Part shown: positions 3,221 through 61,363 of the stretch, piece after piece
How the letters are laid out: each line of letters starts with the position of its first letter
Numbering within the stretch: position 1 is the first letter of the stretch
Origin: a bacterium
GTDB taxonomy: Bacteria > Lindowbacteria > 2-12-FULL-62-27
Assembly (NCBI GenBank): GCA_016202645.1
Contig: JACQOF010000127.1
Span: 1 to 64,000 of the forward strand
Direction of reading: 5' to 3'
Length of the DNA: 64,000 nucleotides
The notes under the pieces: generated by a model
What the model was told of the DNA's origin: nothing
Database searches by the model: none
The model's input: the letters and a program-made list of their open reading frames with translations, nothing else
Made by a program: the position numbers and the translations under genes

Positions 3221-3249
3221 TGTAGCACCTATTGAACTCTCGTCTCGCC

Positions 3250-3348
3250 GTCATTCCCGCGAAAGCGGGAATCCAGTTTGCTTTGCGATAGGTCGGGACG
3301 CACGCTGGAGTTTACCCCGTGCTGGATTCCCGCGTTCGCGGGAATGAC
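3250..3348. repeat. REP-type palindrome pair, copy 1
   Basis: GTCATTCCCGCGAAAGCGGG... (3250-3276) and its inverted partner (3322-3348) face each other across 45 bp. CGACCTGAATAGTTAC lies further right (3371-3386). The unit sits between the SDR and glutamine synthetase genes. It is one of five such pairs in the window (others at 5703, 33942, 38377 and 54258). Confidence 0.9.
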
Positions 3349-3451
3349 AGACACGAGGCGGGCATGTCGACCTGAATAGTTACTCATTGTACCGAATATT
3401 TTCTTCGTGGCCGTTTGAGGCCGTTCGTGTTCGTTCGTGGAGATGGGTTTG

Positions 3452-5686: not shown

Positions 5687-5702
5687 AGTAACTGTTCAGG
5701 TC

Positions 5703-5773
5703 GTCATGCCCGCGAAGGCGGGCATCCAGATCAATCTCAAAGCAGACTGGATTCCCGCTTTCGCGGGAATGAC
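5703..5773. repeat. REP-type palindrome pair, copy 2
   Basis: GTCATGCCCGCGAAGGCGGG... (5703-5729) and its inverted partner (5747-5773) are separated by only 17 bp. The left arm carries compensating changes (CCCGCG/GCGGGC) that keep the hairpin. TAACTGTTCAGG precedes it. It lies between the convergent bfr and uvrB genes and may also help terminate transcription. Confidence 0.9.
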
Positions 5774-5802
5774 GGAGAAGGCTGGATCGTAAGGGCTTAA
5801 AT

Positions 5803-8872: not shown

Positions 8873-9559
8873 TTATCGGTTCCCCCCTTCCCGCGCAACT
8901 GCGTTCCCCAGTGAAAAACGCTTCTTCCCGGGACCCAATGTCGCGCCCCGGAGATACATTGGCAACAATCTGATCGCATCCGTGGTTTCTCCCGCGGCCG
9001 CTTTGAGCGCCGCCAGACGCGGGAGGCCGAGATAGAGCCCTTCGGGATTGACCGCAACCAGCGTTGCGTCTTTGGGGATTTTTATCCGCAGGGCGCCCGT
9101 TGAGGAAACGGCCGCGGGTGCGCGTTCGCAGACCGGCATCCGGTCGCCCTCGATTCGGTAGCCGGCGATGTACTCCAGATCGCGGGCCGCCGGGAAGCGC
9201 ACAAAGAAGCGCCCGGAACGCCCGGCCATGAGATGGGCGCCGACGGCGGCCGCTTCCAACCGGTTCACGCCGACCATCGGCAGATTCAAGGACTGCGAAA
9301 CGGCCTTGGCCATCGACAATCCCACGCGAAGCGCCGTGAATCCTCCAGGCCCGACGCCTCCGGCGATAAATGCCAGTGAGGCGATCGCGACACCGGATTC
9401 GGATTGGATTTCTGAAAGAGCCCGGGTCAGCCATGTGAGAGATGTCGGTCCGGAAAGCGCGCGCCGCTCGGCCAGAATGCGGCCGCCGCCGTATATGCCG
9501 ACCAAGGCAATCCGATCAGCGGTATCGATCAACAGGAACCGATCTTGAGACTGATTCAT
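8873..9559 (-). CDS. tsaB: tRNA t6A biosynthesis protein TsaB
   Basis: The 228-aa ASKHA-fold protein opens with FLLIDTADRIALVGIY and carries GGVGPGGFTALRVGLSMAKA, the TsaB counterpart of GPGSFTGLRIG. TsaB is the non-catalytic partner of TsaD and TsaE in N6-threonylcarbamoyladenosine synthesis on ANN-decoding tRNAs. The start is ATG 9559, overlapping the tsaE stop (ATGA). The 83-bp palindromic element at 9563-9645 lies immediately upstream and occupies its leader, which may alter its translation. tsaD is not in the window. Confidence 0.9.
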   Translation of the reverse strand: MNQSQDRFLLIDTADRIALVGIYGGGRILAERRALSGPTSLTWLTRALSEIQSESGVAIASLAFIAGGVGPGGFTALRVGLSMAKAVSQSLNLPMVGVNRLEAAAVGAHLMAGRSGRFFVRFPAARDLEYIAGYRIEGDRMPVCERAPAAVSSTGALRIKIPKDATLVAVNPEGLYLGLPRLAALKAAAGETTDAIRLLPMYLRGATLGPGKKRFSLGNAVAREGGNR

Positions 9560-10041
9560 GGACCGCCCCCAACACGGAATGGAGAAATTTCCGTCCTGGA
9601 AATTTCTGAGACTGGAGCGTTGGGGACTGGACATCCCTGTCCGCCGGCCAGGCGCTTCATGCGGATGTCCCTCCGGGCGGGATCGGACGTGTGCCGGAAT
9701 GTTATTTCGAGACGCTGGCCCGGCATCAACGCTGGAAATTTGTCCGCCCACTCCACAAAAATCGCGGCGCGCGGGCCCGCCAGCAATTCCTCCCAGCCAA
9801 GCGACAGGACATCCTCCGCGGTATTCAGCCGATACCAGTCGAAATGATGGACCGGACCCTCCGGAAGGTCATATCGCGCATGGAGGATAAATGTCGGGCT
9901 GACCACCTGTTTCGCCAGACGGGCTGAGCGCTTCCGGACCCACTCCCGGACAAAAGTGGTCTTGCCGGCGCCGAGCGGCCCCACGAGCGCAACGATGGAC
10001 CCGGGAGGAATCTCGATTTTGCGGTGGGAGACGGCCATCAA
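9556..10041 (-). CDS. tsaE: tRNA t6A ATPase TsaE with element-encoded C-terminal tail
   Basis: The 161-aa P-loop ATPase has Walker A GPLGAGKT (21-28), a SPTFIL segment, HHFDWYRL and IFVEWADKF, all hallmarks of TsaE, which drives the TsaBDE cycle. The natural fold should end near residue 130. The last ~30 residues (GGQGCPVPNAPVSEISRTEI and on) are encoded by an 83-bp palindromic repeat that recurs inside the ogg gene. The real protein has thus gained a foreign tail. It overlaps thiL by 4 bp at its start and tsaB by 4 bp at its end. Confidence 0.9.
   Translation of the reverse strand: MMAVSHRKIEIPPGSIVALVGPLGAGKTTFVREWVRKRSARLAKQVVSPTFILHARYDLPEGPVHHFDWYRLNTAEDVLSLGWEELLAGPRAAIFVEWADKFPALMPGQRLEITFRHTSDPARRDIRMKRLAGGQGCPVPNAPVSEISRTEISPFRVGGGP
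9563..9645. repeat. 83-bp palindromic element, copy A (in tsaE 3' end)
   Basis: It contains two hairpins: GAAATTTCC-gtcct-GGAAATTTC and GGACA-tccc-TGTCC. A second copy of exactly the same length lies at 18582-18664. The first hairpin differs between copies by matched changes in both arms, so structure has been kept while sequence drifted. The element is translated here as the tail of TsaE. Confidence 0.85.
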
Positions 10042-11003
10042 AACCTGTGCAAAAACCCCTGGGCCATGAGGGGGACTTCCGGGCGCTTCTCCATATTATA
10101 TAGGCGGCCCCCACGGGCGGGGGCACGGCGGATCCGGCCGATGCAGGTGTACCGCGCCTGGATGATGCGCGGGATGGGCGGGCGCGCGGTAAAGAGAAGC
10201 ACGTAGTCTTCGCCGCCAATCGCGGCTTCCGAGATCGGATCCAGGCCCAGAGACGTGAAGGCCTTCCGGGTGGATGGAGACATGGGCAGACGACCGGGAA
10301 ATATTCCGGCGGCGACACAACTGGCGGCGCAAAGGCGATAGAGATCGAGAAGCAGTCCATCCGAAACATCCATCATGGCGGTAACGCAGGGCAGTTTCGA
10401 TAAAATCGCTCCAGCATTTTTCTGGGCCTTCGGCCGAAGATGGGCTTGGGCCAAATCTTTTGGAACCCGGCGGCGCGCCCGGAACAGGTGCAAGGCGGCG
10501 CGGGACGCCCCAACTTCGCCGGAGAGATAAATCAGGTCGCCGGGCCGGGCGCCCGACCTTGAAATGAATCGTTTTTCAAGTTTCCCCGCGACGGAAATAT
10601 CGACAAACAGTTTCGGCGCCCGCGTCACGTCACCGCCGACGATCGGCGTCCGGTACTCGCCGGCCGCCTGGGCCATGCCGGACAGAAGTTCCCGGACCTG
10701 TGGGAGCCGGACGCCTTTGGGAATGCCCACCGTAGCCAGCGCCGCCGACGGGCACGCGCCGCAGGCGTAGATGTCCGACACCGCGGCAGATACGGCCTTG
10801 TAGCCGACATCCGCCCAGGAAAAATATCGGAGATCAAAATCGACGCCCTCCTGCAGAGCGTCCGACGTCAGTACCACGTCGGTCTTGCCGATCCGCACCA
10901 GCGCCGCGTCATCCCCCGGGCCGATCCGCACGCCCAATTTCCGGGCGCGGGAATCCGCCTTGAACCGACGATAAACCTCCCCAAGGACTGTCTGCTCGTT
11001 CAA
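10038..11003 (-). CDS. thiL: Thiamine-monophosphate kinase
   Basis: The 321-aa AIR-synthase-superfamily protein has the ThiL signatures GPGDDAAL (28-35), TSDALQEGVDF with the Mg-binding aspartate, the helix KAVSAAVSDIYACGA, GGDVTRA, and MMDVSDGLLLDL. It phosphorylates thiamine monophosphate to the diphosphate using ATP. It overlaps alr upstream and tsaE downstream by 4 bp each. No TPP riboswitch was seen in the operon leader. Confidence 0.93.
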   Translation of the reverse strand: MNEQTVLGEVYRRFKADSRARKLGVRIGPGDDAALVRIGKTDVVLTSDALQEGVDFDLRYFSWADVGYKAVSAAVSDIYACGACPSAALATVGIPKGVRLPQVRELLSGMAQAAGEYRTPIVGGDVTRAPKLFVDISVAGKLEKRFISRSGARPGDLIYLSGEVGASRAALHLFRARRRVPKDLAQAHLRPKAQKNAGAILSKLPCVTAMMDVSDGLLLDLYRLCAASCVAAGIFPGRLPMSPSTRKAFTSLGLDPISEAAIGGEDYVLLFTARPPIPRIIQARYTCIGRIRRAPARGGRLYNMEKRPEVPLMAQGFLHRF

Positions 11004-12145
11004 GGCTTGTAAATCCTGGGCAGTCGTTTTCCGAAATCCGTCATGACTTCGTACGGAATCGTGCCGGTCACTTTCGACATCTCCCAGAAATCCGGCCCGC
11101 GGCTCTGAGCGGGAAACAGTCCATCGTCTCCCAGAATCAGGATGGGGTCGCCGACGGAAATATCATCCGCGACGGCCGTCAAATCCAGAAACGATTGGTC
11201 CATGCAGATCCGGCCCAGAAACGGCAGGGGCCGGCCCCGGAAATGCGCCACCGAATCCGCGCCACGCCGCCAATCCAGACCGTCAGCGTATCCGACCTGC
11301 ACGACCCCGACGGGCGTGAGTTTCCGGACGCGGCCGGCCAACCCGTACCCAACGCCCTCGCCGGGCTCGACCCATTTCACGGAGATGAGCCGCGCTTTGA
11401 CCACCATCGCCTCGGAAAGCCCCAAACGCGCGGCGTGAGACTCTTGGGGGGTTACGCCATAGAGACCCAGTCCCACGCGGGCCATGTCGTAATGAAAAGC
11501 CCGTGACACAAGAACGCCGCCGGTATTTGCCAGATGGCGGATGCGCGGGATCACGCCGAGACGACGCATCTCTTGAAGACTCCGTTCAAATCGACGGCGC
11601 TGAATCTGCATGAAGGAAGGGTTCTCCAGGGCCGTTGCCAAGTGTGAATAGACACCTTCGACGGAAACGCCCCGAAAGAGCCCAAGCCGCAGGCTGAAAT
11701 CTCCCGCCTGGCGCCAAGGCACGCCGAGGCGGTTCATACCCGAATCAATCTTGAGATGCACCACGGCGCGGCGGCCGGCCCGCGACGCCACGGAATCCAG
11801 TTCGTCGGCGAAGTCGATCGTAAACAACGTGAACGTCACATTTCTCAACAGCAGGTCCCGCAGATCACGGCGGTCGACGGGGCCCATGAGCAGTATCCGC
11901 GCGCGCGGACAAACGTCCCGCAGGCGGTGCGCTTCATCCCCCGTCGACACACAAAACCACCGCACACCGGACCGGTACAGCGCCGCCGACACGCCCTCGA
12001 TGCCGTGCCCGTACGCGTCCGCCTTGACCACAGCCGCCAGTTGCGCGCGCCCCAGTTTCCTCTGAAACAACCGCGCGTTAGCGGCGATCCGGTCCAGATA
12101 AATTTCAACCCACGCGGGCCGCCGCACCCGCCACTTCCGCCCCAT
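11000..12145 (-). CDS. alr: Alanine racemase
   Basis: The 381-aa fold-type III PLP enzyme has the PLP-lysine motif AVVKADAYGHG (Lys41), the RHLANTGG and MARVGLGLYG segments, the catalytic-Tyr region VGYGLAGR, and the C-terminal RICMDQSFLDLT motif. It supplies D-alanine for peptidoglycan. It is the first gene of the alr-thiL-tsaE-tsaB-polymerase-uvrB operon. The 108-bp gap to the divergent hydrolase gene should carry its promoter, though no clear -35/-10 pair was identified. Confidence 0.95.
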   Translation of the reverse strand: MGRKWRVRRPAWVEIYLDRIAANARLFQRKLGRAQLAAVVKADAYGHGIEGVSAALYRSGVRWFCVSTGDEAHRLRDVCPRARILLMGPVDRRDLRDLLLRNVTFTLFTIDFADELDSVASRAGRRAVVHLKIDSGMNRLGVPWRQAGDFSLRLGLFRGVSVEGVYSHLATALENPSFMQIQRRRFERSLQEMRRLGVIPRIRHLANTGGVLVSRAFHYDMARVGLGLYGVTPQESHAARLGLSEAMVVKARLISVKWVEPGEGVGYGLAGRVRKLTPVGVVQVGYADGLDWRRGADSVAHFRGRPLPFLGRICMDQSFLDLTAVADDISVGDPILILGDDGLFPAQSRGPDFWEMSKVTGTIPYEVMTDFGKRLPRIYKP

Positions 12146-12253
12146 TCCGCCACACTAAATTTTGAACCCGACGTTGTAAATCCCCCCAAAAGGGGACGGA
12201 GGCTAACAGATTAACAGTTGATGCCGGGTGGCCACTGGTGATAGTGTTTCCTC

Positions 12254-12997
12254 ATGAATGTGAAGGAAAGTTTCATCGACCTCGCGACACCCACCGGCCT
12301 CATGCGGACGCATGTCTTCGAGCCCGCCACGGAAACGCCCGCCAAGAAGTATCCCGGGCTGTTGTTCTATACGGAGATCTTCCAGGTCACAGGCCCGATG
12401 CGGAGGCTGTCCGCGCAGTTCGCCGCACAAGGATATGTCGTGCTGGTCCCGGAGATATATCACGAACATGAGGCGCCGGGCACGGTGCTGGGATACGACG
12501 AGCCTGGGAAATCGAAGGGAAACGCGTACAAGCACAAGACACGACTGACGACGTTTGATGAAGACGCGCGGGTGGTCATCCGGGCGCTGAAGGAGTATCC
12601 CGCCTGCAGTGGACGGCTTGGTGTGGTCGGTTTCTGCATCGGAGGCCATCTCGCGTTTCGGGCCGCACTCAACAAGGAAATCCTTGCGGCCTGCTGCTTC
12701 TATCCGACCGATCTCCACAGCGGCACCCTGGGTGAGGGACAGAATGCGGACTCGCTCCGCCGGGTCCAAGACATCCGCGGGGAACTTCTCATGATCTGGG
12801 GGAGACAGGATCCGCACATTCCCTATGAGGGGCGATTGGCGATTTACAAGACCCTGCATGAATCAGGCGCTCGATTCACCTGGCATGAATTCAACGCGGA
12901 ACATGCGTTTATGCGGGACGATGGCAACCGCCACAATCCGGCCGACGCCGCGCGCTGTCTCACCCTGGCTTACGATTTGTTTCATCGAACCCTCTGA
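12254..12997 (+). CDS. Dienelactone hydrolase family protein
   Basis: The 247-aa alpha/beta hydrolase has the DLH nucleophile elbow GFCIGG with Cys128, Asp186 in WGRQDPHIP, His217 in NAEHAFM, and Glu41 in TEIF, the residue that orients the Cys in DLH. Its natural substrate may be a lactone or ester. No aromatic-degradation genes flank it, so carboxymethylenebutenolidase should be read as family rather than pathway. It is monocistronic and diverges from alr. Confidence 0.88.
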   Translation: MNVKESFIDLATPTGLMRTHVFEPATETPAKKYPGLLFYTEIFQVTGPMRRLSAQFAAQGYVVLVPEIYHEHEAPGTVLGYDEPGKSKGNAYKHKTRLTTFDEDARVVIRALKEYPACSGRLGVVGFCIGGHLAFRAALNKEILAACCFYPTDLHSGTLGEGQNADSLRRVQDIRGELLMIWGRQDPHIPYEGRLAIYKTLHESGARFTWHEFNAEHAFMRDDGNRHNPADAARCLTLAYDLFHRTL

Positions 12998-13044
12998 CCT
13001 CATCGTTGACATCAGCAGCCAGGGCAGGATAGGGTCGCCGACGA

Positions 13045-13262
13045 ACGGAAGGTGCCTTGCTGCACGTGCGGCTGGGTAAACGGGAATCCCGTGACTCCGC
13101 TTTCTGCGGGGAAATCGGGAGCGGTCACGCCACTGTGAAGGGGTGCCGGCGCCGGATGCCACTGTCCTCCTTCGCCGCCTGCGATGATGTTCGCGCAGAG
13201 ACGGCTACGGAGGACGGGAAGGCGGCGCGGCGATACGCCTGAGCCAGGAGACCGGCCTTTCG
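13045..13262 (+). ncRNA. Cobalamin (B12) riboswitch
   Basis: This region fills the 301-bp gap before the CbiX-like gene. It contains the conserved core in order: GGTGCC near 13051, GGGAATCCCGTG (13082-13093), GGTCACGCCACTGTGAA (13123-13139), and the B12 box GAGCCAGGAGACCGGCC (13241-13257). This is the typical order and spacing of the AdoCbl-type riboswitch. The limits are approximate. The ATG follows within about 40 bp, so control is probably translational, by hiding the AAGGGGA ribosome-binding site. Confidence 0.9.
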
Positions 13263-13298
13263 GGACGATCAGATTCTCCTCGATGAAAGGGGAAGGCC

Positions 13299-13724
13299 AT
13301 GTCCTCCGGGAACGGATCCAAATCCATCAAGCATCCATCTTCAGCTCTCGTCATCGTTTCGCACCAGAGCCTCGTGCGGCGGGGCAGTCTTCAATTGCGC
13401 CGAATCGGCAGCCGGCTGCGCGCCGAGAGAAATTTTATCGCGATCTATGACGTGAACATCGCCGGAAAAGGAGGCTTGGAAAATCTCGCCCGAAAAATCG
13501 ATAAGTCAGGCATCCGGTCTGTACTGGTACTACCCTTCTTTCTGCACGATGGATATCATGTCCGTGTCGAACTCCCATCACGCCTTCGAACCTTGCGGCG
13601 CACACATCCCCGGCTCAAACTGCGGCTCCTGCCTCACCTGGGATCCCACCCGGACCTCGGGGATCTCGTTCGGGATATCATCATGTCTCCGGGACGACCG
13701 ACTGCAACATCAAGAGCGGAATGA
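13299..13724 (+). CDS. CbiX/SirB-type chelatase-like protein
   Basis: The 141-aa product matches the small CbiX-fold chelatases: SALVIVSHQS at the N-terminus (normally GHGS), VLVLPFFLHDGYHVRVELP carrying the second metal-site His, and HPRLKLRLLPHLGSHPDLGDLV. The class inserts Co2+ or Fe2+ into sirohydrochlorin. The upstream cobalamin riboswitch strongly suggests a cobalt/B12 role. The N-terminal His is kept but its GHGS loop is altered to SHQS, so the substrate could differ. SD AAGGGGA lies about 7 nt upstream of the ATG. No other B12 genes are nearby. Confidence 0.78.
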   Translation: MSSGNGSKSIKHPSSALVIVSHQSLVRRGSLQLRRIGSRLRAERNFIAIYDVNIAGKGGLENLARKIDKSGIRSVLVLPFFLHDGYHVRVELPSRLRTLRRTHPRLKLRLLPHLGSHPDLGDLVRDIIMSPGRPTATSRAE

Positions 13725-13806
13725 GGTTTGTTTTTCCGGGGGTTTTCTAGTATCTAGGATACAGAATGCGCCTGCCCCGCGCATCTATTTGCATGGAGGC
13801 AAGATG

Positions 13807-13840
13807 CCGTACGATGCCATGGATGGCATGCGTCGTACGG
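13807..13840 (+). repeat. Stem-loop upstream of tRNA-Arg
   Basis: CCGTACGA (13807-13814) pairs with TCGTACGG (13833-13840), and GCCAT pairs with ATGGC within. The hairpin ends 5 bp before the tRNA. There is no T-tract, so it is unlikely to be a simple terminator; it may be a processing structure. Confidence 0.7.
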
Positions 13841-13845
13841 TACAT

Positions 13846-13919
13846 GCGCCCGTAGCTCAGCTGGATAGAGCGACGGCCTCCGAAGCCGTAGGCCAGAGGT
13901 TCGACTCCTCTCGGGCGCA
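13846..13919 (+). tRNA. tRNA-Arg (anticodon CCG)
   Basis: The 74-nt cloverleaf has acceptor GCGCCCG/CGGGCGC, a D-arm GCTCAGCTGGATAGAGC, an anticodon stem ACGGC/GCCGT with loop CTCCGAA (anticodon CCG), and a T-arm AGAGG-TTCGACT-CCTCT. The discriminator is A. CCA is not encoded. No integration scar is evident downstream. Confidence 0.97.
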
Positions 13920-13963
13920 CAGGGGCAGGCGGGGATTGACAGAAATTCGGGGGGTTACTTACT

Positions 13964-14959
13964 GTGTTCGCGATGTATGCCAACAAAAGAATTCTTGTCA
14001 CGGGCGCTACAGGTCTGATCGGGAGGGCGCTTGTCAAACTGCTGATTCAGGCCGGCGCCAGGGTGCGGGCGGCGTCCTTGCGGGATCCGATAGATCCTCA
14101 CCCCGAAGCGGAATATGTTCAGGGCGATTTGATGAGCCGGGACGTTTGCGCCGGGATGACCCGCGGGATGGACTATGTTTTCCACCTGGCCAGCATCAAG
14201 GGTTCTGTAGGTGTTGGGCGGAAATACGCCGCGGATTTTTTTGTCAAGCCCATTTTGATGAACACCCACATGATGGAAGAATCCCGGAAAGCCGGAGTTG
14301 AAGCCTATTTGTTTGCCAGCAGCATCTGTGTTTACGCGCCCGCCCGGGTTTTTGTCGAGGAGAAAGCCTGGGACGCGCCGCCTCAGCAGGCCGACGCTTT
14401 CGCCGGCTGGGCCAAGCGTATGGGCGAGATGCAGGCCGCCGCCTACCGGGAGCAGTATGGCTGGAACAAAATTGCCATTGTCAGGCCCGTCAACATCTAC
14501 GGTCCCTATGACAACTTTGACCCCCAGACCGCTCAAGTGATCCCAGCGCTGATCGCCCGAGTCGTTCACGGCGAAAATCCGCTGTGTGTCTGGGGGGATG
14601 GAACCGCCGTCCGTGATTTTCTGTATTGCAGGGATGCCGCGAGAGGCATGATGCTGGCCCTCGAAAAATACGCGAATGGGTCCCCGGTGAATCTTGGCTC
14701 GGGGGTCGGGTTTTCCGTACGCGAAATCGCCGAGGCCATTCTGGCCGCGACCGGGCGGAACCCGGAGATTCGCTGGGACACCAGTAAAGCGACGGGAGAA
14801 AAATACCGCGTGGCCGACGCGAAGACAGCCCGCGAGCACCTTGGCTTTCAGCCTGAGGTTTCCCTGAGGGACGGCATTGCCGAGACCGTCAAGTGGTACA
14901 TGGACCATCGCGATGGCCGGAGCTTCAGGAAACCCAACTACAGCCCATCCCCTTCTTAG
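13964..14959 (+). CDS. NAD-dependent epimerase/dehydratase-like protein with altered YxxxK motif
   Basis: The 331-aa extended SDR has TGATGLIG (13-20), DYVFHLAS, ASSICVYAP, and the sugar-binding region RPVNIYGPYDNFDP. It is close to nucleotide-sugar epimerases and GDP-fucose-synthase-like enzymes. The expected catalytic YxxxK reads AFAGWAKRMGE: Lys151 is present but Ala147 replaces Tyr. Either a neighbouring residue substitutes or the enzyme lost redox catalysis. The start is GTG 13964, or ATG 13973. It heads a plus-strand group with an aldo/keto reductase and two glycosyltransferases, which suggests surface-sugar synthesis. Confidence 0.85.
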   Translation: MFAMYANKRILVTGATGLIGRALVKLLIQAGARVRAASLRDPIDPHPEAEYVQGDLMSRDVCAGMTRGMDYVFHLASIKGSVGVGRKYAADFFVKPILMNTHMMEESRKAGVEAYLFASSICVYAPARVFVEEKAWDAPPQQADAFAGWAKRMGEMQAAAYREQYGWNKIAIVRPVNIYGPYDNFDPQTAQVIPALIARVVHGENPLCVWGDGTAVRDFLYCRDAARGMMLALEKYANGSPVNLGSGVGFSVREIAEAILAATGRNPEIRWDTSKATGEKYRVADAKTAREHLGFQPEVSLRDGIAETVKWYMDHRDGRSFRKPNYSPSPS

Positions 14960-14979
14960 AACGTGCCCCGCGCCGCAAA

Positions 14980-15957
14980 ATGAAAAATCGTCTGCTCGGC
15001 AAGACCGGCTTGGCCGTTTCCGAAATCGGCTTTGGTACCTGGGGCATCGGCGGCGCCGCGGACGGCGACGTTGCGTACGGTCCGACCGACGATGAGGAAT
15101 CGAAACGAGCCCTGGAGCGGGCCTACGATCTTGGGGTTACGTTCTACGACACGTCCGATCTCTATGGATTCGGCCACAGTGAGCGTATCCTGGGGAGCGT
15201 ATTCAAGAAGGTCAGGGACAAAGTTGTCATTGCATCGAAATCCGGCTTCATCAGGCAAGACGGCGATCTAAAGCAGGATTTCTCGATCCAGCGTATCCGG
15301 CAATCTCTCGAGGAAAGTCTTCGGAGGCTGCAGACCGACTACATCGACCTGTACCAGCTGCACAGCCCGCCGGTTGATGTGATCGAACAGGACCCGGCGA
15401 TCCTCGAAACGCTTCGGTCACTTCAGCGGGCCGGCAAAATTCGGGCTTTCGGAATTTCAGCGCGTTCCCCGGACGAAGCCCGGTTGGCGGTTCAGAACTG
15501 GGGGGTTCCCTGTGTCCAGGTCAATTTCAATTTGACAGACCAGCGCGTCGTGGAAAATGGCCTCATGGATCTTTGCCGGAAGGAGGACACGGGGCTCATC
15601 ATTCGTACGCCGCTGTGTTTCGGGTTTCTTGTCGGCACCTACTCCGCAAACACCCCATTTGACCCCAGGGACCACCGCAGCAAATGGCCGGCACAGCAAC
15701 TCGAGGCATGGGCCGGCGCCCCGAATGTTTTCTCACCGCTGCTGAACTATCCACACCAGACCCCGGCCCAGTTGGCGCTCCGCTTCTGCCTTTCCTACTC
15801 CTCCGTGTCCACAGTCATCCCCGGCATGTTGACGGCGGACCAAGTCACCGAAAACAGTTCCGCCAGCGCGCTGGGGCCCTTCACGGACGCGGAACGATCA
15901 ACGCTTGAGGAGGCCTACAAGCGCCATACCTTTTTTGTGAAGAAATCCGGTTCCTGA
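14980..15957 (+). CDS. Aldo/keto reductase
   Basis: The 325-aa (beta/alpha)8 AKR has GFGTWGIGG, then YDTSDLYGFGHSE holding the catalytic Asp and Tyr, IASKSGF with the Lys, and YQLHSPP with the His. It should reduce or oxidise a carbonyl with NAD(P)H. It starts 20 bp after the epimerase stop, so the two are probably cotranscribed. Its context points to a sugar substrate, but that is inference. The C-terminal cofactor-binding loop (STVIPGMLTADQVTEN) is intact. Confidence 0.9.
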   Translation: MKNRLLGKTGLAVSEIGFGTWGIGGAADGDVAYGPTDDEESKRALERAYDLGVTFYDTSDLYGFGHSERILGSVFKKVRDKVVIASKSGFIRQDGDLKQDFSIQRIRQSLEESLRRLQTDYIDLYQLHSPPVDVIEQDPAILETLRSLQRAGKIRAFGISARSPDEARLAVQNWGVPCVQVNFNLTDQRVVENGLMDLCRKEDTGLIIRTPLCFGFLVGTYSANTPFDPRDHRSKWPAQQLEAWAGAPNVFSPLLNYPHQTPAQLALRFCLSYSSVSTVIPGMLTADQVTENSSASALGPFTDAERSTLEEAYKRHTFFVKKSGS

Positions 15958-16017
15958 TCAAGTGGGTTGTCGGCGCCTTGACATTTACGCGGGTCTGATA
16001 TTCTCTATGGGTCGAAG

Positions 16018-16743
16018 ATGAAAGTTACCCTTGTGATTCCCACGCGCGACGAGATCGTCGGAATGCGCCAGATTATTCCCCGCATACGGCCTGAATGGTA
16101 TGACCAGGTGATCGTTTTGGACGGAGGGTCCACGGATGGCACCGTGGAGTTCGCCCGTGAACGGGGATTCGACGTCCATATCCAGCGCGACCACGGCCTG
16201 CGGCTCGGGTACGCCGAGATCTATGACAAGATCCAGGGCGACGTGGTGATCACCTTCAGCCCGGACGGCAACTCCGTGCCCGAGGTCCTGCCGGATGTCA
16301 TCGCGAAGCTTCGAGAAGGCTATGACTTGGTGATCGCGTCGCGCTATCTCCCGCCGGCCCGAAGTTACGACGACACCGCCCTGACAAGGATTGGAAATTA
16401 TGTTTTCACCAAGATGATCGGCTGGCTCTTCGGGTATCCCTACACCGACTCCCTTGTGATATTTCGCGGGTATCGTAAAACCGTGGTGCGCGATCTGGGC
16501 ATTCTCGACCGCCGCTCACCTTTTTACGAATACTGGATCGGTCTCTACATCAGCTGGGAACCTCAGTTGTCGATCCGCGCCGCCAAGCGGGGCCTTCGGA
16601 TCGCCGAGGTCCCCGGTGACGAACCGGTGCGCGTGGCGGACGACAGCAAAAAATCCATCTTCCTGCCGCAGACCCGGATTAGCCACTTCAAATCCGGCCT
16701 GGCCTGCCTCTACCTTGTCATCGAGGAGCGCCTTCGGCCATGA
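16018..16743 (+). CDS. Glycosyltransferase family 2
   Basis: The 241-aa GT-A enzyme has VTLVIPTRDE at the nucleotide-sugar site, VIVLDGGSTDGT, and the metal motif region ITFSPDGNSVPE (DGN in place of DxD). It has a C-terminal helix-rich tail but no clear membrane segment. The family includes dolichol-phosphate-mannose-synthase-like enzymes. It follows the epimerase/AKR pair by 60 bp and precedes a GT9 enzyme, so it probably adds a sugar to a surface glycan. Confidence 0.88.
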   Translation: MKVTLVIPTRDEIVGMRQIIPRIRPEWYDQVIVLDGGSTDGTVEFARERGFDVHIQRDHGLRLGYAEIYDKIQGDVVITFSPDGNSVPEVLPDVIAKLREGYDLVIASRYLPPARSYDDTALTRIGNYVFTKMIGWLFGYPYTDSLVIFRGYRKTVVRDLGILDRRSPFYEYWIGLYISWEPQLSIRAAKRGLRIAEVPGDEPVRVADDSKKSIFLPQTRISHFKSGLACLYLVIEERLRP

Positions 16744-16810
16744 CGGCGCGCCGGTAGAGTTTCCGGCGCAGCCGGCGTCTATTTCTTCTGTCCGAGAAGG
16801 ACCCATCCCC

Positions 16811-17857
16811 ACGAACATTCTCGCTATCAAATTCCGCCATATCGGGGATAATCTTCTCGCGGCGGCGGCCCTTCGGATCCTGAAACGACGGTATTCGGAA
16901 GCAAGTATCGATTATCTCGTGCCTGAAAGCGGCGGCGGATCGGATCTGCTCAGGCTCATTCCAGCGGTCGATGAGGTGATCGATTTTCCGTCCGACTACC
17001 GCCGGCGATGCCGGCTGGCCCGGAGGGTCCTGGCCAAGCGGTACGATCTAACCGTCGATTTTTCCTGGGACACCCGGAGCGCGGGCTGGGGCCTTCTAAC
17101 CGGCGCGGCAATCCGACTTGGATACTATTTCCGAAAACGCGTACCAGCCTGGCCCTTTTACACCCGGGCCTGTCCGATGGGCAAGGCCCATACAGCCCAG
17201 GCGAACATAGACCTCGTCGGGCTGGCGGGCGCGAGGCCTCATGACGCGGAGGACTTGAGACTCAGGCTCGATATTCCGGACACGGCGATGCGCCGTGCGG
17301 AAGAGGTTCTTCGGGACTGCGGGATTGGCGCGGGCGAGGATATTTTTGTTCTTCACCCGGCATCCCGGTGGGCCTTCAAGATGTGGACGGACGCGGGTAA
17401 CGCGGAATTTTTGGACATGTCGAGGCGTCTGGGCCTCCGTCCCGTTGTCACGTGCGGGCCGTCCGATCCGGAACGCAAAAAACTTTCGAGAATCCTTGAG
17501 CTGTGCCGGCACAAACCGGTCATGATTCCCGGCAGACTGGATCTTCCAGCCTTCGCGGCTCTTCTCCAGCGCGCGAAACTTTTCGTCGGCGTCGACAGCG
17601 CTCCGGTCCACATCGCGGCCGCCGTCGGCACGCCGGTCGTCGCCTTGTTCGGGCCTTCGGGCCAGAAGGAATGGTATCCTTGGCAAGTTCCTCACCGGAC
17701 GATCCAGCGCCTGTCGTGGTCGTGCTGTCCCTGCGGGCAGGACGGCTGCGCGGGCACGAAGCGTTCGCTATGTCTGGAGGACATCCGGCCGGAGGAGGTG
17801 TTCCGGGCCGCGGAGGAACTCATCAAGGAGACAAAAAATCCCATGGAGGTGATGTGA
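16811..17857 (+). CDS. Glycosyltransferase family 9 (heptosyltransferase-like)
   Basis: The GT-B enzyme begins NILAIKFRHIGDNLLAAAALRILKRRY, the usual GT9 opening, and holds VLHPASRWAFKMW and the nucleotide-sugar motif [28 protein letters not shown]. It resembles LPS core heptosyltransferases. No ATG, GTG or TTG occurs at the expected start; ACG at 16811 sits exactly there, 9 nt after AAGGA. In-frame TTG (16715) and GTG (16616) lie inside the upstream gene. The C-terminus has Cys-rich CCPCGQDGCAGTKRSLCL. It overlaps queD by 1 bp. Confidence 0.85.
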   Translation, partial: TNILAIKFRHIGDNLLAAAALRILKRRYSEASIDYLVPESGGGSDLLRLIPAVDEVIDFPSDYRRRCRLARRVLAKRYDLTVDFSWDTRSAGWGLLTGAAIRLGYYFRKRVPAWPFYTRACPMGKAHTAQANIDLVGLAGARPHDAEDLRLRLDIPDTAMRRAEEVLRDCGIGAGEDIFVLHPASRWAFKMWTDAGNAEFLDMSRRLGLRPVVTCGPSDPERKKLSRILELCRHKPVMIPGRLDLPAFAALLQRAKLFVGVDSAPVHIAAAVGTPVVALFGPSGQKEWYPWQVPHRTIQRLSWSCCPCGQDGCAGTKRSLCLEDIRPEEVFRAAEELIKETKNPMEVM

Positions 17858-18258
17858 TGTTCACGGTAACCAAGGAAATCCACTTCTGCTACGGGCACCG
17901 CCTGATGAATTATGACGGGGCCTGCCGGCATCCGCACGGTCACAATGGGCGGGCGGCGTTTGAGATGAAGGCCGCGCGGCTGGACGATCTGGGGATGGTC
18001 AAGGATTTTACGGAGATCAAGACGGTCCTCAAGGACTGGATCGACCTCGAGATCGACCACAAGATGCTTCTGAGAAAGGATGACCCGGCGCTTGACGCGT
18101 TCCGGAAACTCGGCGAGCCCGTGTTCGTGATGGACGAGAATCCGACGACCGAAGCGATCGCAAAACTTTTTTTTGAAAAAGCCAAGAGCGTGGGATTCCC
18201 GGTCAGCCAGGTGCGGGTATGGGAGACTGAGACAAGCGTCGCGTCGTATTCGGGCTAG
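17857..18258 (+). CDS. queD: 6-carboxytetrahydropterin synthase QueD-like
   Basis: The 133-aa T-fold protein has FCYGHRL, ACRHPHGHNGR carrying the zinc histidines and the catalytic Cys, EIDHKMLL, and the C-terminal VRVWETETSVASY containing the pterin-anchoring Glu. It converts dihydroneopterin triphosphate to 6-carboxytetrahydropterin in queuosine (7-deazaguanine) synthesis. The next pathway enzyme, QueE, lies separately at 38485. GGAGGTGA precedes the ATG, and the start overlaps the GT9 stop (TGATG). It converges with and overlaps ogg by 4 bp at the 3' ends. Confidence 0.9.
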   Translation: MFTVTKEIHFCYGHRLMNYDGACRHPHGHNGRAAFEMKAARLDDLGMVKDFTEIKTVLKDWIDLEIDHKMLLRKDDPALDAFRKLGEPVFVMDENPTTEAIAKLFFEKAKSVGFPVSQVRVWETETSVASYSG

Positions 18259-19316
18259 TCCCGCGCGAAGAGCTTCCGCCTCAGGCGCTCGGCCGTGAAG
18301 AGGAACTGCTGGGCGTAGCCGGCCCAGCGGCCGAAGCGGCGCCGGTAGAAGCGGCCGATCCGTTCGTATTCCCGGAGGCTCAGAAAATCGGCGTCCTTCG
18401 CGCGAAGACCCCGAAGGTTCCGGCGATACAGCCGGAGTGTCGCGTTGAACACATGCACGTCCACGGGGACGGCTTCGGTCAGCCCCAGCCCGAAGAGGCA
18501 CACGCAGTCGGCCACTTTCGGGCCGGCGCCCATGCAGGTTTCACGAAGACGCCGGTGGGTTTCCTCATAGGTGTGCGATGCCCTCCCCCTTCGCAGATTG
18601 AAGAAAATCCCGTCCTGGGATTTCCTGAGTCTGGAGCTTCGGGGACTGGACATCCCTGTCCGCCAGAAACCCGGGTCCCGGGCGACTTCGCGGAATGTCC
18701 GGATGATGTTTTTCGCCTGCGGGCGGCCGTACCGCAGACCGCATTTCGCGAGGCGTACGGACCGGGCGCGCGCGAGAATTTCCGGACCCGGGGGCAGATA
18801 GAATGTTCCCCAGGGCGATTCGACGCGGCGGCCATAAGCTCGGCCGACCTCGTTCAAGATCCGCGCGATTTTGAGGATCCTGTTTTGCGGCGAACACAAG
18901 AACGTCAGCAGACACTCCATCGGCTCGACCCGAATCAGCCGGAGACCCGGCAGTGCGCGGTACGCCGCCGCCACATGCGGGTCTTTCTCCAGCACGGGCG
19001 CAATGTCCGAGAATTTTTCCTCCATGCGGAAATACCATCTCACGAATTCATCGGGTGTCTTGCACGGACCGATCTGCCTCGCTCCGCATTCCAGTTCGAT
19101 CTCGCGGGCGGCCGGCTGTCTGAGCCGGACCACGGTTCCATACGTCGGCGCCGTGAACCATCCGTCGGCGTCCGGTTCGCCGTAGGACAGAAGCCGGCCC
19201 CGGCGGTCGTACCGGCCCCATCCGAAGGCGGCGCCGCTGGCGAGGGTTGAACGCAGATCAAAGGGTTCGTCCAGATGAAGGACGGACCGGAACGCGGACT
19301 TCGCGTGGATAGTCAG
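18255..19316 (-). CDS. ogg: 8-oxoguanine DNA glycosylase (OGG1-type), with in-frame repeat insertion and CTG start
   Basis: The 353-aa product has an OGG_N-like N-terminal domain, then an HhH-GPD domain. This includes CSPQNRILKIARIL and GAGPKVADCVCLFGL with the catalytic Lys267, and AVPVDVHVF with Asp286. It should excise 8-oxoguanine and nick the AP site. Residues ~218-245 are encoded by an 83-bp palindromic element inserted in frame just before the HhH motif. No ATG/GTG/TTG lies near the expected start; CTG at 19316 overlaps the upstream stop as CTGA, like the ATGA junctions in this operon. It is the last gene of the metK operon. Confidence 0.85.
   Translation of the reverse strand: MTIHAKSAFRSVLHLDEPFDLRSTLASGAAFGWGRYDRRGRLLSYGEPDADGWFTAPTYGTVVRLRQPAAREIELECGARQIGPCKTPDEFVRWYFRMEEKFSDIAPVLEKDPHVAAAYRALPGLRLIRVEPMECLLTFLCSPQNRILKIARILNEVGRAYGRRVESPWGTFYLPPGPEILARARSVRLAKCGLRYGRPQAKNIIRTFREVARDPGFWRTGMSSPRSSRLRKSQDGIFFNLRRGRASHTYEETHRRLRETCMGAGPKVADCVCLFGLGLTEAVPVDVHVFNATLRLYRRNLRGLRAKDADFLSLREYERIGRFYRRRFGRWAGYAQQFLFTAERLRRKLFARD
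18582..18664. repeat. 83-bp palindromic element, copy B (inside ogg)
   Basis: Same length and layout as copy A at 9563-9645. Hairpin one is AAATCCC-gtcct-GGGATTT where copy A has AAATTTCC/GGAAATTT, so both arms changed together. The hairpin GGACATCCCTGTCC is identical. It is read in frame through the glycosylase. Confidence 0.85.
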
Positions 19317-33903: not shown

Positions 33904-33941
33904 GCGAACTGGTGTAGTGTCCCAGAAGTCTCTTTACATTT

Positions 33942-34021
33942 GTCATTCCCGCGAAAGCGGGAATCCAGGCAGTAGCTGAATCGGATACGGCTGCCTGGAC
34001 CCCCGCTTTCGCGGGGGTGAC
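33942..34021. repeat. REP-type palindrome pair, copy 3
   Basis: The two facing arms are 33942-33968 and 33995-34021, the second with a compensated CCCCCGC/GCGGGGG hairpin. An outer inverted repeat CTTTACATTTG (33931-33941) / CAAATGTAAAG (34029-34039) encloses the pair. It lies between rmuC and the glycosyltransferase gene. Confidence 0.9.
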
Positions 34022-34059
34022 GGGCTTTGCAAATGTAAAGAAGCGTTGGATACACCACA

Positions 34060-38308: not shown

Positions 38309-38376
38309 TGGGAAAGTATTTGAAGATTGAGAATTGCGGTAACTGTTCAGGTTCCCCGGGCTATTGCATTCTGCCC

Positions 38377-38453
38377 GTCATTCCCGCGAAAGCGGGAATC
38401 CAGGGCTTTGCCCTCGGTAAACCGGGCTGGATTCCCGCTTTCGCGGGAATGAC
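38377..38453. repeat. REP-type palindrome pair, copy 4
   Basis: Arms 38377-38403 and 38427-38453 face each other. The flanks GTAACTGTTCAGGT (38339-38352) and ACCTGAATAGTCAC (38455-38468) form an outer imperfect inverted repeat also seen at copy 5. Lies between the GAF-EAL and queE genes. Confidence 0.92.
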
Positions 38454-38484
38454 GACCTGAATAGTCACGAATTGCGCCGGAATC

Positions 38485-40613: not shown

Positions 40614-41642
40614 GATTGGTATCAGACTTCGAGATTGGTATCAGATTGGTATCATATCAGATTGGTATCAGACTTTGAATTATTGAATTATTAGGGTAGT
40701 CTACTCGTTGCATGGGCTATATAGTTCGTGAATACGTCACAGGTTACTGGTATCATGTATATACGCGCGGTCAGCGCCGAGAACCCCTATTTTTTTCTCC
40801 GGGAGATCGCGTTCGATATCTCAGTTTACTTGATCAAGAACTCTACAGACGCGGCGGAAACATCGGCAGTTTTACGCTGATGACCAATCATGTGCACCTC
40901 TTGTTGAGGATGGGTAAGACGCCCCTCGGAGACATTCTTCAATTCGCACATTCACAATATGCCAAGGACTTCAACGCACGACGTGGGACAGTTGGACACG
41001 TCACCCAAGGTCGGCCCGGAGTCAAAATTGTTCTGGATGACGCCTACCTATGGGCACTGGTTGGCTATTTGCATCGTAATGCCCTCGAAGCCCGAATCGT
41101 GAAGCGCGTGACAGACTATAAGTGGAGTTCGTGGTATTGGTTTGAAGGCCAGAAGTGCGATTGGATCAAGTTGAAAAGTTGGCGTTTTCCGCCAGGATTC
41201 GACGGGCGCAAAACCAGGACAGCTTTTCGGAATGCCGTGGATCGAGGCGAACACGACTGGCCGGAAGGAAGGGGCTTCGTCGGAACACAGGATCAATGGG
41301 ATATGCTCGAGCGGAGAAGACAGGTGGGACGACCCGCACAAAAGTACAAAGAACGGCGGGGGCGAAGGGAGATGGCAGAGATTGCGGCAGACTTGGTCAA
41401 GGCCACCGGACTTACCATACAAGAACTACAGGGGCCAAGCCGAAAGCGAGATGTCAGCAGTGTACGGCATCGTGTGATGGCCCTGATGTTTGAGGAAGGC
41501 TATGGAGCTTCGGAGATCGCAAGATGGTTTGGCCGCACTCCTGGAATAGTCTCCAAGACCCACGGAAGCTGAACCCCGAAATCCTAATAATTCAATAATT
41601 CAAAGTGTGATACCAATTCGGATACCAATTCGTGATACCAAT
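40614..41642 (+). mobile_element. RAYT element with 35-bp terminal inverted repeats and iterons
   Basis: A Y1 transposase gene is flanked by near-perfect 35-bp inverted repeats at 40661-40695 and 41583-41617 (one mismatch). Outside these lie GATTGGTATCA iterons: four on the left (40614, 40633, 40644, 40660) and three inverted copies on the right (41608-41642). The right iterons encode the final residues of the neighbouring REC-PAS gene. The unit's repeats differ from the REP pairs found elsewhere in the window. Confidence 0.88.
40712..41572 (+). CDS. REP-associated tyrosine transposase (RAYT, Y1_Tnp) with C-terminal HTH
   Basis: The 286-aa HUH transposase has YWYHVYTRGQRREPLFF, the HUH pair TNHVHLLL (His60, His62), and the nucleophile Tyr83 in SQYAKDFNARRG followed by VGHVTQGR. 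The C-terminal ~90 residues end with RHRVMALMFEEGYGASEIARWFGRTPGIVSK, a DnaA-domain-IV-like helix-turn-helix found in many RAYTs. It nicks ssDNA at hairpin structures. Flanking iterons and inverted repeats form its likely substrate. Confidence 0.92.
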   Translation: MGYIVREYVTGYWYHVYTRGQRREPLFFSPGDRVRYLSLLDQELYRRGGNIGSFTLMTNHVHLLLRMGKTPLGDILQFAHSQYAKDFNARRGTVGHVTQGRPGVKIVLDDAYLWALVGYLHRNALEARIVKRVTDYKWSSWYWFEGQKCDWIKLKSWRFPPGFDGRKTRTAFRNAVDRGEHDWPEGRGFVGTQDQWDMLERRRQVGRPAQKYKERRGRREMAEIAADLVKATGLTIQELQGPSRKRDVSSVRHRVMALMFEEGYGASEIARWFGRTPGIVSKTHGS

Positions 41643-54213: not shown

Positions 54214-54257
54214 CTCGAAGCGCCTCCATCTGGATTTGTTACTATTCAGCCCCCTCC

Positions 54258-54328
54258 GTCATTCCCGCGAAAGAGGGAATCCAGATTGATTTGCGATTAG
54301 TCTGGATTCCCGCTTTCGCGGGAATGAC
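54258..54328. repeat. REP-type palindrome pair, copy 5
   Basis: Arms 54258-54284 and 54302-54328 face each other across 17 bp. GTTACTATTCAG (54238-54249) and CCTGAATAGTCAC (54331-54343) form the outer inverted repeat. Lies between the divergent VIT-vWA and EVE genes. Confidence 0.92.
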
Positions 54329-54438
54329 GACCTGAATAGTCACCTGGATTTTATCGTATTTCCCCTACAGGGATAAGACGCCGGAGGGCCAAAAAAAGTT
54401 ACAAAAAGATTTTTGGGGTAAGATAGGATGAACCCGCA

Positions 54439-57284: not shown

Positions 57285-57315
57285 AGTAAGGGTGGATTGG
57301 GATTGGATTGGGATT

Positions 57316-57374
57316 GGGGCCGGGTATTGACATTATTGACATTCCGAATGTCAATAATGTCAATACCCGGCCCC
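57316..57374. repeat. 59-bp perfect palindrome (28-bp arms, 3-nt loop)
   Basis: Arms 57316-57343 and 57347-57374 are exact reverse complements around CCG. Each arm holds two ATTGACATT direct repeats. It lies between the convergent TPR-MBL and alaS genes, next to a GGATTGGGATT tandem repeat (57292-57318). It should act as a strong bidirectional terminator, or be an extruding cruciform. Confidence 0.97.
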
Positions 57375-57392
57375 AAATGGCCATACTTTCCC

Positions 57393-61277: not shown

Positions 61278-61363
61278 CCGGTAACCGGTAACCGGTAACC
61301 GGTAATCGGTGACCGGTCATCAGGTTTACCAGTTACCGATTACCGGTTACCGGTTACTGACAG
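61278..61363. repeat. GGTAACC tandem array in inverted arrangement
   Basis: Five CCGGTAA-type 7-bp units run rightward (61278-61320) and are followed by units in the opposite orientation (61325-61363), forming an imperfect 86-bp palindrome. It lies between the cyclase-like gene and fabF. Confidence 0.9.

Follow-up and report, generated by a model that had tools for sequence, protein, structure and literature searches.

A 78-bp palindromic element with two GGA-loop hairpins, inserted in frame in many protein-coding genes of a Lindowbacteria genome

Two genes of one DNA stretch, tsaE and the gene of an 8-oxoguanine DNA glycosylase (OGG), share a palindromic segment inside their open frames, raising the question of what this segment is and how both proteins accommodate it. 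The stretch (hereafter the window, 64,000 nucleotides) belongs to a MAG (G000) of 2.92 Mb in 146 contigs, 82% complete, whose missing 18% could hide genes. It was compared with Candidatus Lindowbacteria RIFCSPLOWO2_12_FULL_62_27 (G001), a sister genus, and with the third member of the family (G002), used as a second sister genus for orthologues. Gene calls are our own iterated codon-model predictions on the draft MAG, replacing a discarded codon-usage attempt that lacked strand resolution.

An earlier note had located the two copies at 9563–9645 and 18582–18664. These positions are right; both copies lie on the minus strand, are 82% identical without indels and, as claimed, are inserted in sense within the open frames of TsaE and OGG. 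Their lengths are equal as described, but the figure of 83 bp has to be reduced: the common core measures 79 nt (9565–9643 and 18584–18662), and the insertion relative to empty orthologues is 78 bp, or 26 codons. The outermost 2–3 bases per side (GG / GG) lie outside the element and represent a target preference. Coordinates are collected in Table 1.

Table 1. Features of the window and loci of diverged relatives of the element
Feature	Position	Strand	Details
tsaE	9556..10038	-	Pfam TsaE (5.3e-28) at residues 10-121; element at residues 132-159
Element copy 1, class 1	9565..9642	-	78-bp insertion, GQGCPVPNAPVSEISRTEISPFRVGG frame; covariance score 106 bits
Copy 1 hairpin 1	9629..9642	-	GGACA-GGGA-TGTCC
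Copy 1 hairpin 2	9583..9607	-	AGAAATTTCC-AGGAC-GGAAATTTCT
Copy 1 outer helix, 5′ arm	9617..9627	-	GTCCCCAACGC
Copy 1 outer helix, 3′ arm	9565-9575	-
Predicted insert-derived peptides			TsaE, GQGCPVPNAPVSEISR; LeuRS, DVQSPK
OGG1-like 8-oxoguanine DNA glycosylase gene	18255..19316	-	HhH-GPD at residues 79-237
Element copy 2, class 2	18584..18661	-	78-bp insertion in OGG, read as RTGMSSPRSSRLRKSQDGIFFNLRRGR; 91.6 bits
Copy 2 hairpin 1	18648..18661	-
Copy 2 hairpin 2	18602..18626	-	AGGAAATCCC-AGGAC-GGGATTTTCT
tRNA-adjoining relatives	G001 L140, L141, L142, L144, L146, L212, L218, L220; G000 L132, L134, L205
Terminator-adjoining relatives	L207, L208, L211, L214, L216, near position 1501
Y1 (IS200-like) transposase domain	40736-40981		between 35-bp inverted repeats 40661-40695 and 41583-41617
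REP-like repeats, inverted pairs	3243-3363, 5696-5788, 33935-34036, 38370-38468, 54251-54343		CGTCATTCCCGCGAAAGCGGGAATCCAG
Cobalamin riboswitch	13033-13274
tRNA-Arg(CCG)	13846-13919
Perfect inverted repeat, 31 bp	57314-57376		1-nt spacer
Repeated palindrome	61281-61357		GTAACCGGT type

Copy 1 supplies the C-terminal 26 aa of TsaE, and the stop codon of tsaE overlaps the start of tsaB; the TsaE proteins of both relatives end without this tail. Copy 2 falls between two OGG blocks matching human OGG1, immediately ahead of the HhH motif (the start codon of this gene is uncertain, as the conserved frame reaches ~19316 and the gene predictor puts the start at 19133). OGG of G002 is uninterrupted. 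That of G001 (L192:1462–2535) has ~19 extra residues in the same loop, a few positions from the G000 insertion site, encoded in frame by an unrelated palindrome (CCCTCTCCCGCCTCAGGCGGGAGAGGG...; CCCTCTCCC...GGGAGAGGG) present in dozens of copies in G001. Since two unrelated elements occupy one OGG loop in sister genera, this loop is permissive. The AlphaFold model of OGG (pLDDT 43) is too poor to display the insert as a loop, and a homologue scan of genome contigs with the OGG protein as query gave no match.

The repeat is real, and the phenomenon is far larger than two copies. BLAST with copy 1 returned 42 matches in G000, down to E = 3.5e-40, which is far beyond chance. A covariance model trained on 15 copies recovered 50 strong full-length copies in G000, 3 in G001 and none of the main type in G002. 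As main type we define the 79-nt copies with ends of the GTCCCC/GGGGGC form, set apart from a diverged 80-nt type (model R2); all of them run from CGGACAGGG to GGGGGC with zero indels. An exact 21-base motif scanned against 84,980 species genomes matched only in Candidatus Lindowbacteria RIFCSPLOWO2_12_FULL_62_27, no element match was found in phages, plasmids or viral contigs, and no Rfam family matches the element, with hits confined to flanking tRNAs. The main-type family is thus found only in Lindowbacteria-type genomes. The earlier note had proposed searching the genome and relatives and comparing orthologues, and had named as the contrary outcome an element absent elsewhere and present in all orthologues as ordinary protein sequence; this fails on both counts, because the element is present elsewhere and missing from orthologues.

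Most G000 copies lie in genes: 39 of 50 are wholly genic, 5 extend past the end of a gene and 6 lie between genes, slightly fewer genic copies than the coding density of 0.89 predicts (p = 0.02). Hosts identified by Pfam or alignment include, besides TsaE and OGG, a glutaredoxin-thioredoxin reductase fusion, inositol monophosphatase, a GcvT-like protein, CobD, RecG, NAD-GDH, ribosomal protein S2, E2 acyltransferase, LeuRS, ValRS, a RecF-like protein, RibF, SMC and a UvrD-type nuclease-helicase; an S1-domain protein (also listed as ribosomal protein S1) and a spermidine synthase-like protein carry two copies each. Pfam domains split by a copy are still recognised on either side. Orthologues of 14 host genes were taken from the sister genera using one concatenated query. 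The gaps are exactly 26 residues in LeuRS, an AmmeMemoRadiSam-like radical SAM protein, the YgfZ/GcvT-like protein (both relatives), CobD (both) and E2 (G002), and ~25 residues or less clean in RecF, RibF and TrxR, among others. The idea that these are ordinary conserved protein segments alike by chance, i.e., convergent low-complexity linkers, draws on the first impression given by the Gly/Pro-rich peptides; it is refuted by DNA that is near-identical across all frames and both orientations and missing from orthologues, leaving it next to no probability.

The element has a compact predicted fold comprising hairpin 1 (GGACA-GGGA-TGTCC), hairpin 2 (ten base pairs enclosing AGGAC) and an outer helix (GTCCCCAACGC/GCGTTGGGGGC), which in class 2 copies is short of three pairs (GAA against GAA). 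Both hairpins nearly always present a GGA loop. Among 52 copies (44 distinct), 91.9% of cells pair, compared with 31–54% (at most 53.5%) on sliding, and both sides have changed in 49 cells, compared with 17 in shuffles. In the diverged relatives many stem bases are swapped with pairing kept at 97.3%, and loops nearly always retain GGA. The two hairpins and outer helix are therefore supported by compensatory changes, and the compensating arms noticed earlier in the window copies (GAAATTTCC/GGAAATTTC versus GGAAATCCC/GGGATTT(T/C)C) are backed by covariation across the family.

The genic copies of G000 are unevenly distributed over the reading frames: sense frames are used 5/13/11 times and antisense frames 0/1/9 times. 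The frame with zero genic use is the sole stop-containing one, closed in 49 of 50 copies; each of the other five is free of stops in 46–49 of the 50. The sense-to-antisense ratio of 29:10 departs from 1:1 (p = 0.003), and only marginally from 3:2, the ratio that open frames predict (p = 0.07). Favoured frames read GQGCPVPEAPDSG..., DRDVQSPKLQTQ... and PPPSQIEGNPVLG..., are rich in Gly, Pro and Ser and contain more disorder-promoting residues than rare frames, and frame use tracks the predicted flexibility of the five peptides (on a disorder-propensity scale). Third codon positions are favoured among the departures from consensus (17 of 33). Taken together, the frame statistics and this bias argue for an insert that is probably translated and under selection as peptide, and speak against its removal at the RNA level.

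Such removal, whether by post-transcriptional splicing of a mini-intron or by ribosomal skipping of a bypass element, would leave the host proteins normal. It would fit the stable fold, the copies in essential genes and domain interiors, and genic insertion nearly as common as coding density predicts. However, a removed element need be neither a multiple of three nor stop-free, whereas here the length is always 78 and the stop frame is unused in genes; for the roughly 10 antisense copies, an RNA processing signal specific to one strand would fail, and the aligned positions resemble loops, linkers and tails. We reject both versions on the frame statistics and regard them as very unlikely.

The paired GGA loops suggest another function, namely that the element represents paired CsrA binding sites retained for regulation. 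CsrA selects the SELEX consensus RUACARGGAUGU (PMC3856055). Its sequence feature, GGA in the loop of a short hairpin, is present: hairpin 1 retains CANGGANG in all 52 main-type copies (core GGA), several tRNA-type relatives with other stems match the consensus exactly in hairpin 1, the hairpin 2 loop is mostly AGGA or ANGGA, and csrA is present in G001. Yet G000 has the most copies, and csrA was not found in this 82% complete genome or in G002. The copies are scattered in coding regions away from ribosome-binding sites, a quarter of them antisense, and a transposase dimer reading both hairpins would equally predict similar loops. A role as CsrA sites is improbable, if slightly less so than RNA removal.

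What best explains these data, with high probability, is a short non-autonomous mobile palindromic element, spread genome-wide and tolerated in genes as a harmless in-frame linker. An insertion of 78 bp never shifts the reading frame; the Gly/Pro/Ser-rich peptides of the favoured frames are probably flexible; and copies landing in loops, linkers and tails would survive, none being seen in the stop frame (loop placement is judged from alignments). As the hairpins are kept by compensatory change despite coding, a function at the nucleic-acid level probably maintains the fold. Most likely it is recognised by a mobilising enzyme, which would act in trans.

The flanks bear on how such an enzyme might work. 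On the left, G, G and then C G G are near-fixed; to the right of C79, G follows in 42 of 47 copies and then G in 35 of 47, giving GGC^GGR as the empty site. Target-site duplication is not accepted as a rule: the left CGG is near-invariant and the right side varies in 12 of 47 copies, with one locus (L113) having CGT on both sides, which fits duplication. Insertion at GGC^GGR without clear duplication suggests single-strand (HUH/Y1-type) transposition or site-specific recombination, the likeliest kinds of mobiliser, presumably acting on the folded strand; the first of these, taken on its own, we consider possible, though with less than even chances. None of the Y1/RAYT transposase genes examined in this 82% complete MAG is flanked by the element. 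A longer parent sharing its ends was also sought and discarded, as nearly all of the 57 sites matching the left-end pattern in the assembly lie within complete copies. The window itself contains a tyrosine transposase of the Y1 (IS200-like) type flanked by terminal inverted repeats.

The diverged relatives occupy different sites. In G001 the 80-nt type sits flush against tRNA genes, at the 3′ end of Leu-CAG, Leu-TAG, Lys-TTT, Lys-CTT, Arg, Trp and Met and also, on the opposite strand, at the 5′ end of Gly; in G000 it adjoins the 5′ end of Glu and a tRNA-like 3′ end on C65. Mostly the hairpin-1 end touches the tRNA 3′ end (L134 is 72 nt distant), and the first base pair of hairpin 1 takes in the tRNA discriminator base. 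At L205 (~1430–1500), a tRNA-Val(CAC)-like 3′ half lies just ahead of a tRNA-type element, with no complete tRNA predicted. In five cases an element of a subtype with ATCCC/GGGAT ends comes straight after the T-tract of an intrinsic terminator, with a strong hairpin just upstream of the tract in four. No main-type copy was found near a tRNA.

Elements ending in C have a C immediately to their left, and those ending in T a T, so that one guide base could pair with both positions; this suggests, from few subfamilies, that the target may be chosen by pairing. We tentatively speculate, at rather long odds, that a Lindowbacteria superfamily of double-GGA-hairpin elements picks its sites by end-target pairing: GTCCC/GGGAC ends at the C of tRNA ends, ATCCC/GGGAT ends at the terminator T, and GTCCCC/GGGGGC ends at GGC^GG, mostly genic. 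If so, the superfamily would represent a novel type of minimal mobile element, guided by hairpins and including a branch that tolerates coding sequence. The tRNA- and terminator-linked relatives offer a natural experiment on target finding.

Among known systems, elements of the IS200/IS605 type (HUH/Y1, single-strand) have hairpins near both ends, make no target duplication and insert beside a short fixed flank that could pair with an internal guide. The present element may share the hairpins near its ends, insertion beside a short fixed sequence and the lack of clear duplication; it differs in that no transposase with these ends was found in the 82% complete MAG, and guide-target pairing is suggested by few subfamilies. 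Most bacterial MITEs are bounded by terminal inverted repeats and duplicate their target. Like ERIC, Correia/NEMIS and RUP, the element is small, non-autonomous and hairpin-forming, and such MITEs are sometimes fused in frame to ORFs; unlike most MITEs, it has ends (CGGACAGGG and GGGGGC) that do not form an inverted repeat, its pairing lies inside the element and target duplication is not clearly seen.

GTAG/CGTC-tagged REPs are single hairpins of 20–40 bp, mostly intergenic, although some sit in ORFs (repair genes, tRNA synthetases), and RAYT Y1 transposases are the presumed mobilisers of some (PMC3733652). Our element is likewise a hairpin repeat with copies within ORFs, but it is 78 bp long, has two hairpins and an outer helix, is mostly genic, has different ends and shows no RAYT association. 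The window separately carries repeats resembling CGTC-tagged REPs, alongside the perfect inverted repeat, repeated palindrome, riboswitch and tRNA-Arg gene listed in Table 1.

The closest parallel is that drawn in the earlier note, to the Rickettsia palindromic elements (RPE-1 and others; Ogata 2000, 2002). These are Rickettsia-specific, 105–146 and up to ~150 bp long, roughly half genic, and each family encodes one conserved peptide, i.e., uses one frame (reviewed in PMC2229807 and PMC10969869). The likeness holds for behaviour: in both cases small palindromic repeats lie in frame in many unrelated conserved genes, and host proteins are retained. It does not extend to membership, as no sequence relation was shown, the length is 78 rather than 105–150 bp, the phylum and ends differ, and five frames in both orientations are used (13, 11, 9, 5 and 1 copies) instead of one conserved peptide, with ~78% of copies genic instead of roughly half. 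The element thus behaves as an RPE does without being a member of that group.

High-frequency entry of mobile DNA into proteins has its best documentation in Rickettsia, whose members are obligate intracellular bacteria with reduced genomes. In the present ~2.9 Mb genome, from an uncultured phylum, the same outcome appears independently, with a higher genic fraction and in essential genes; and since the element is translated in silico in five frames, the choice among them gives a direct view of selection on the added peptide.
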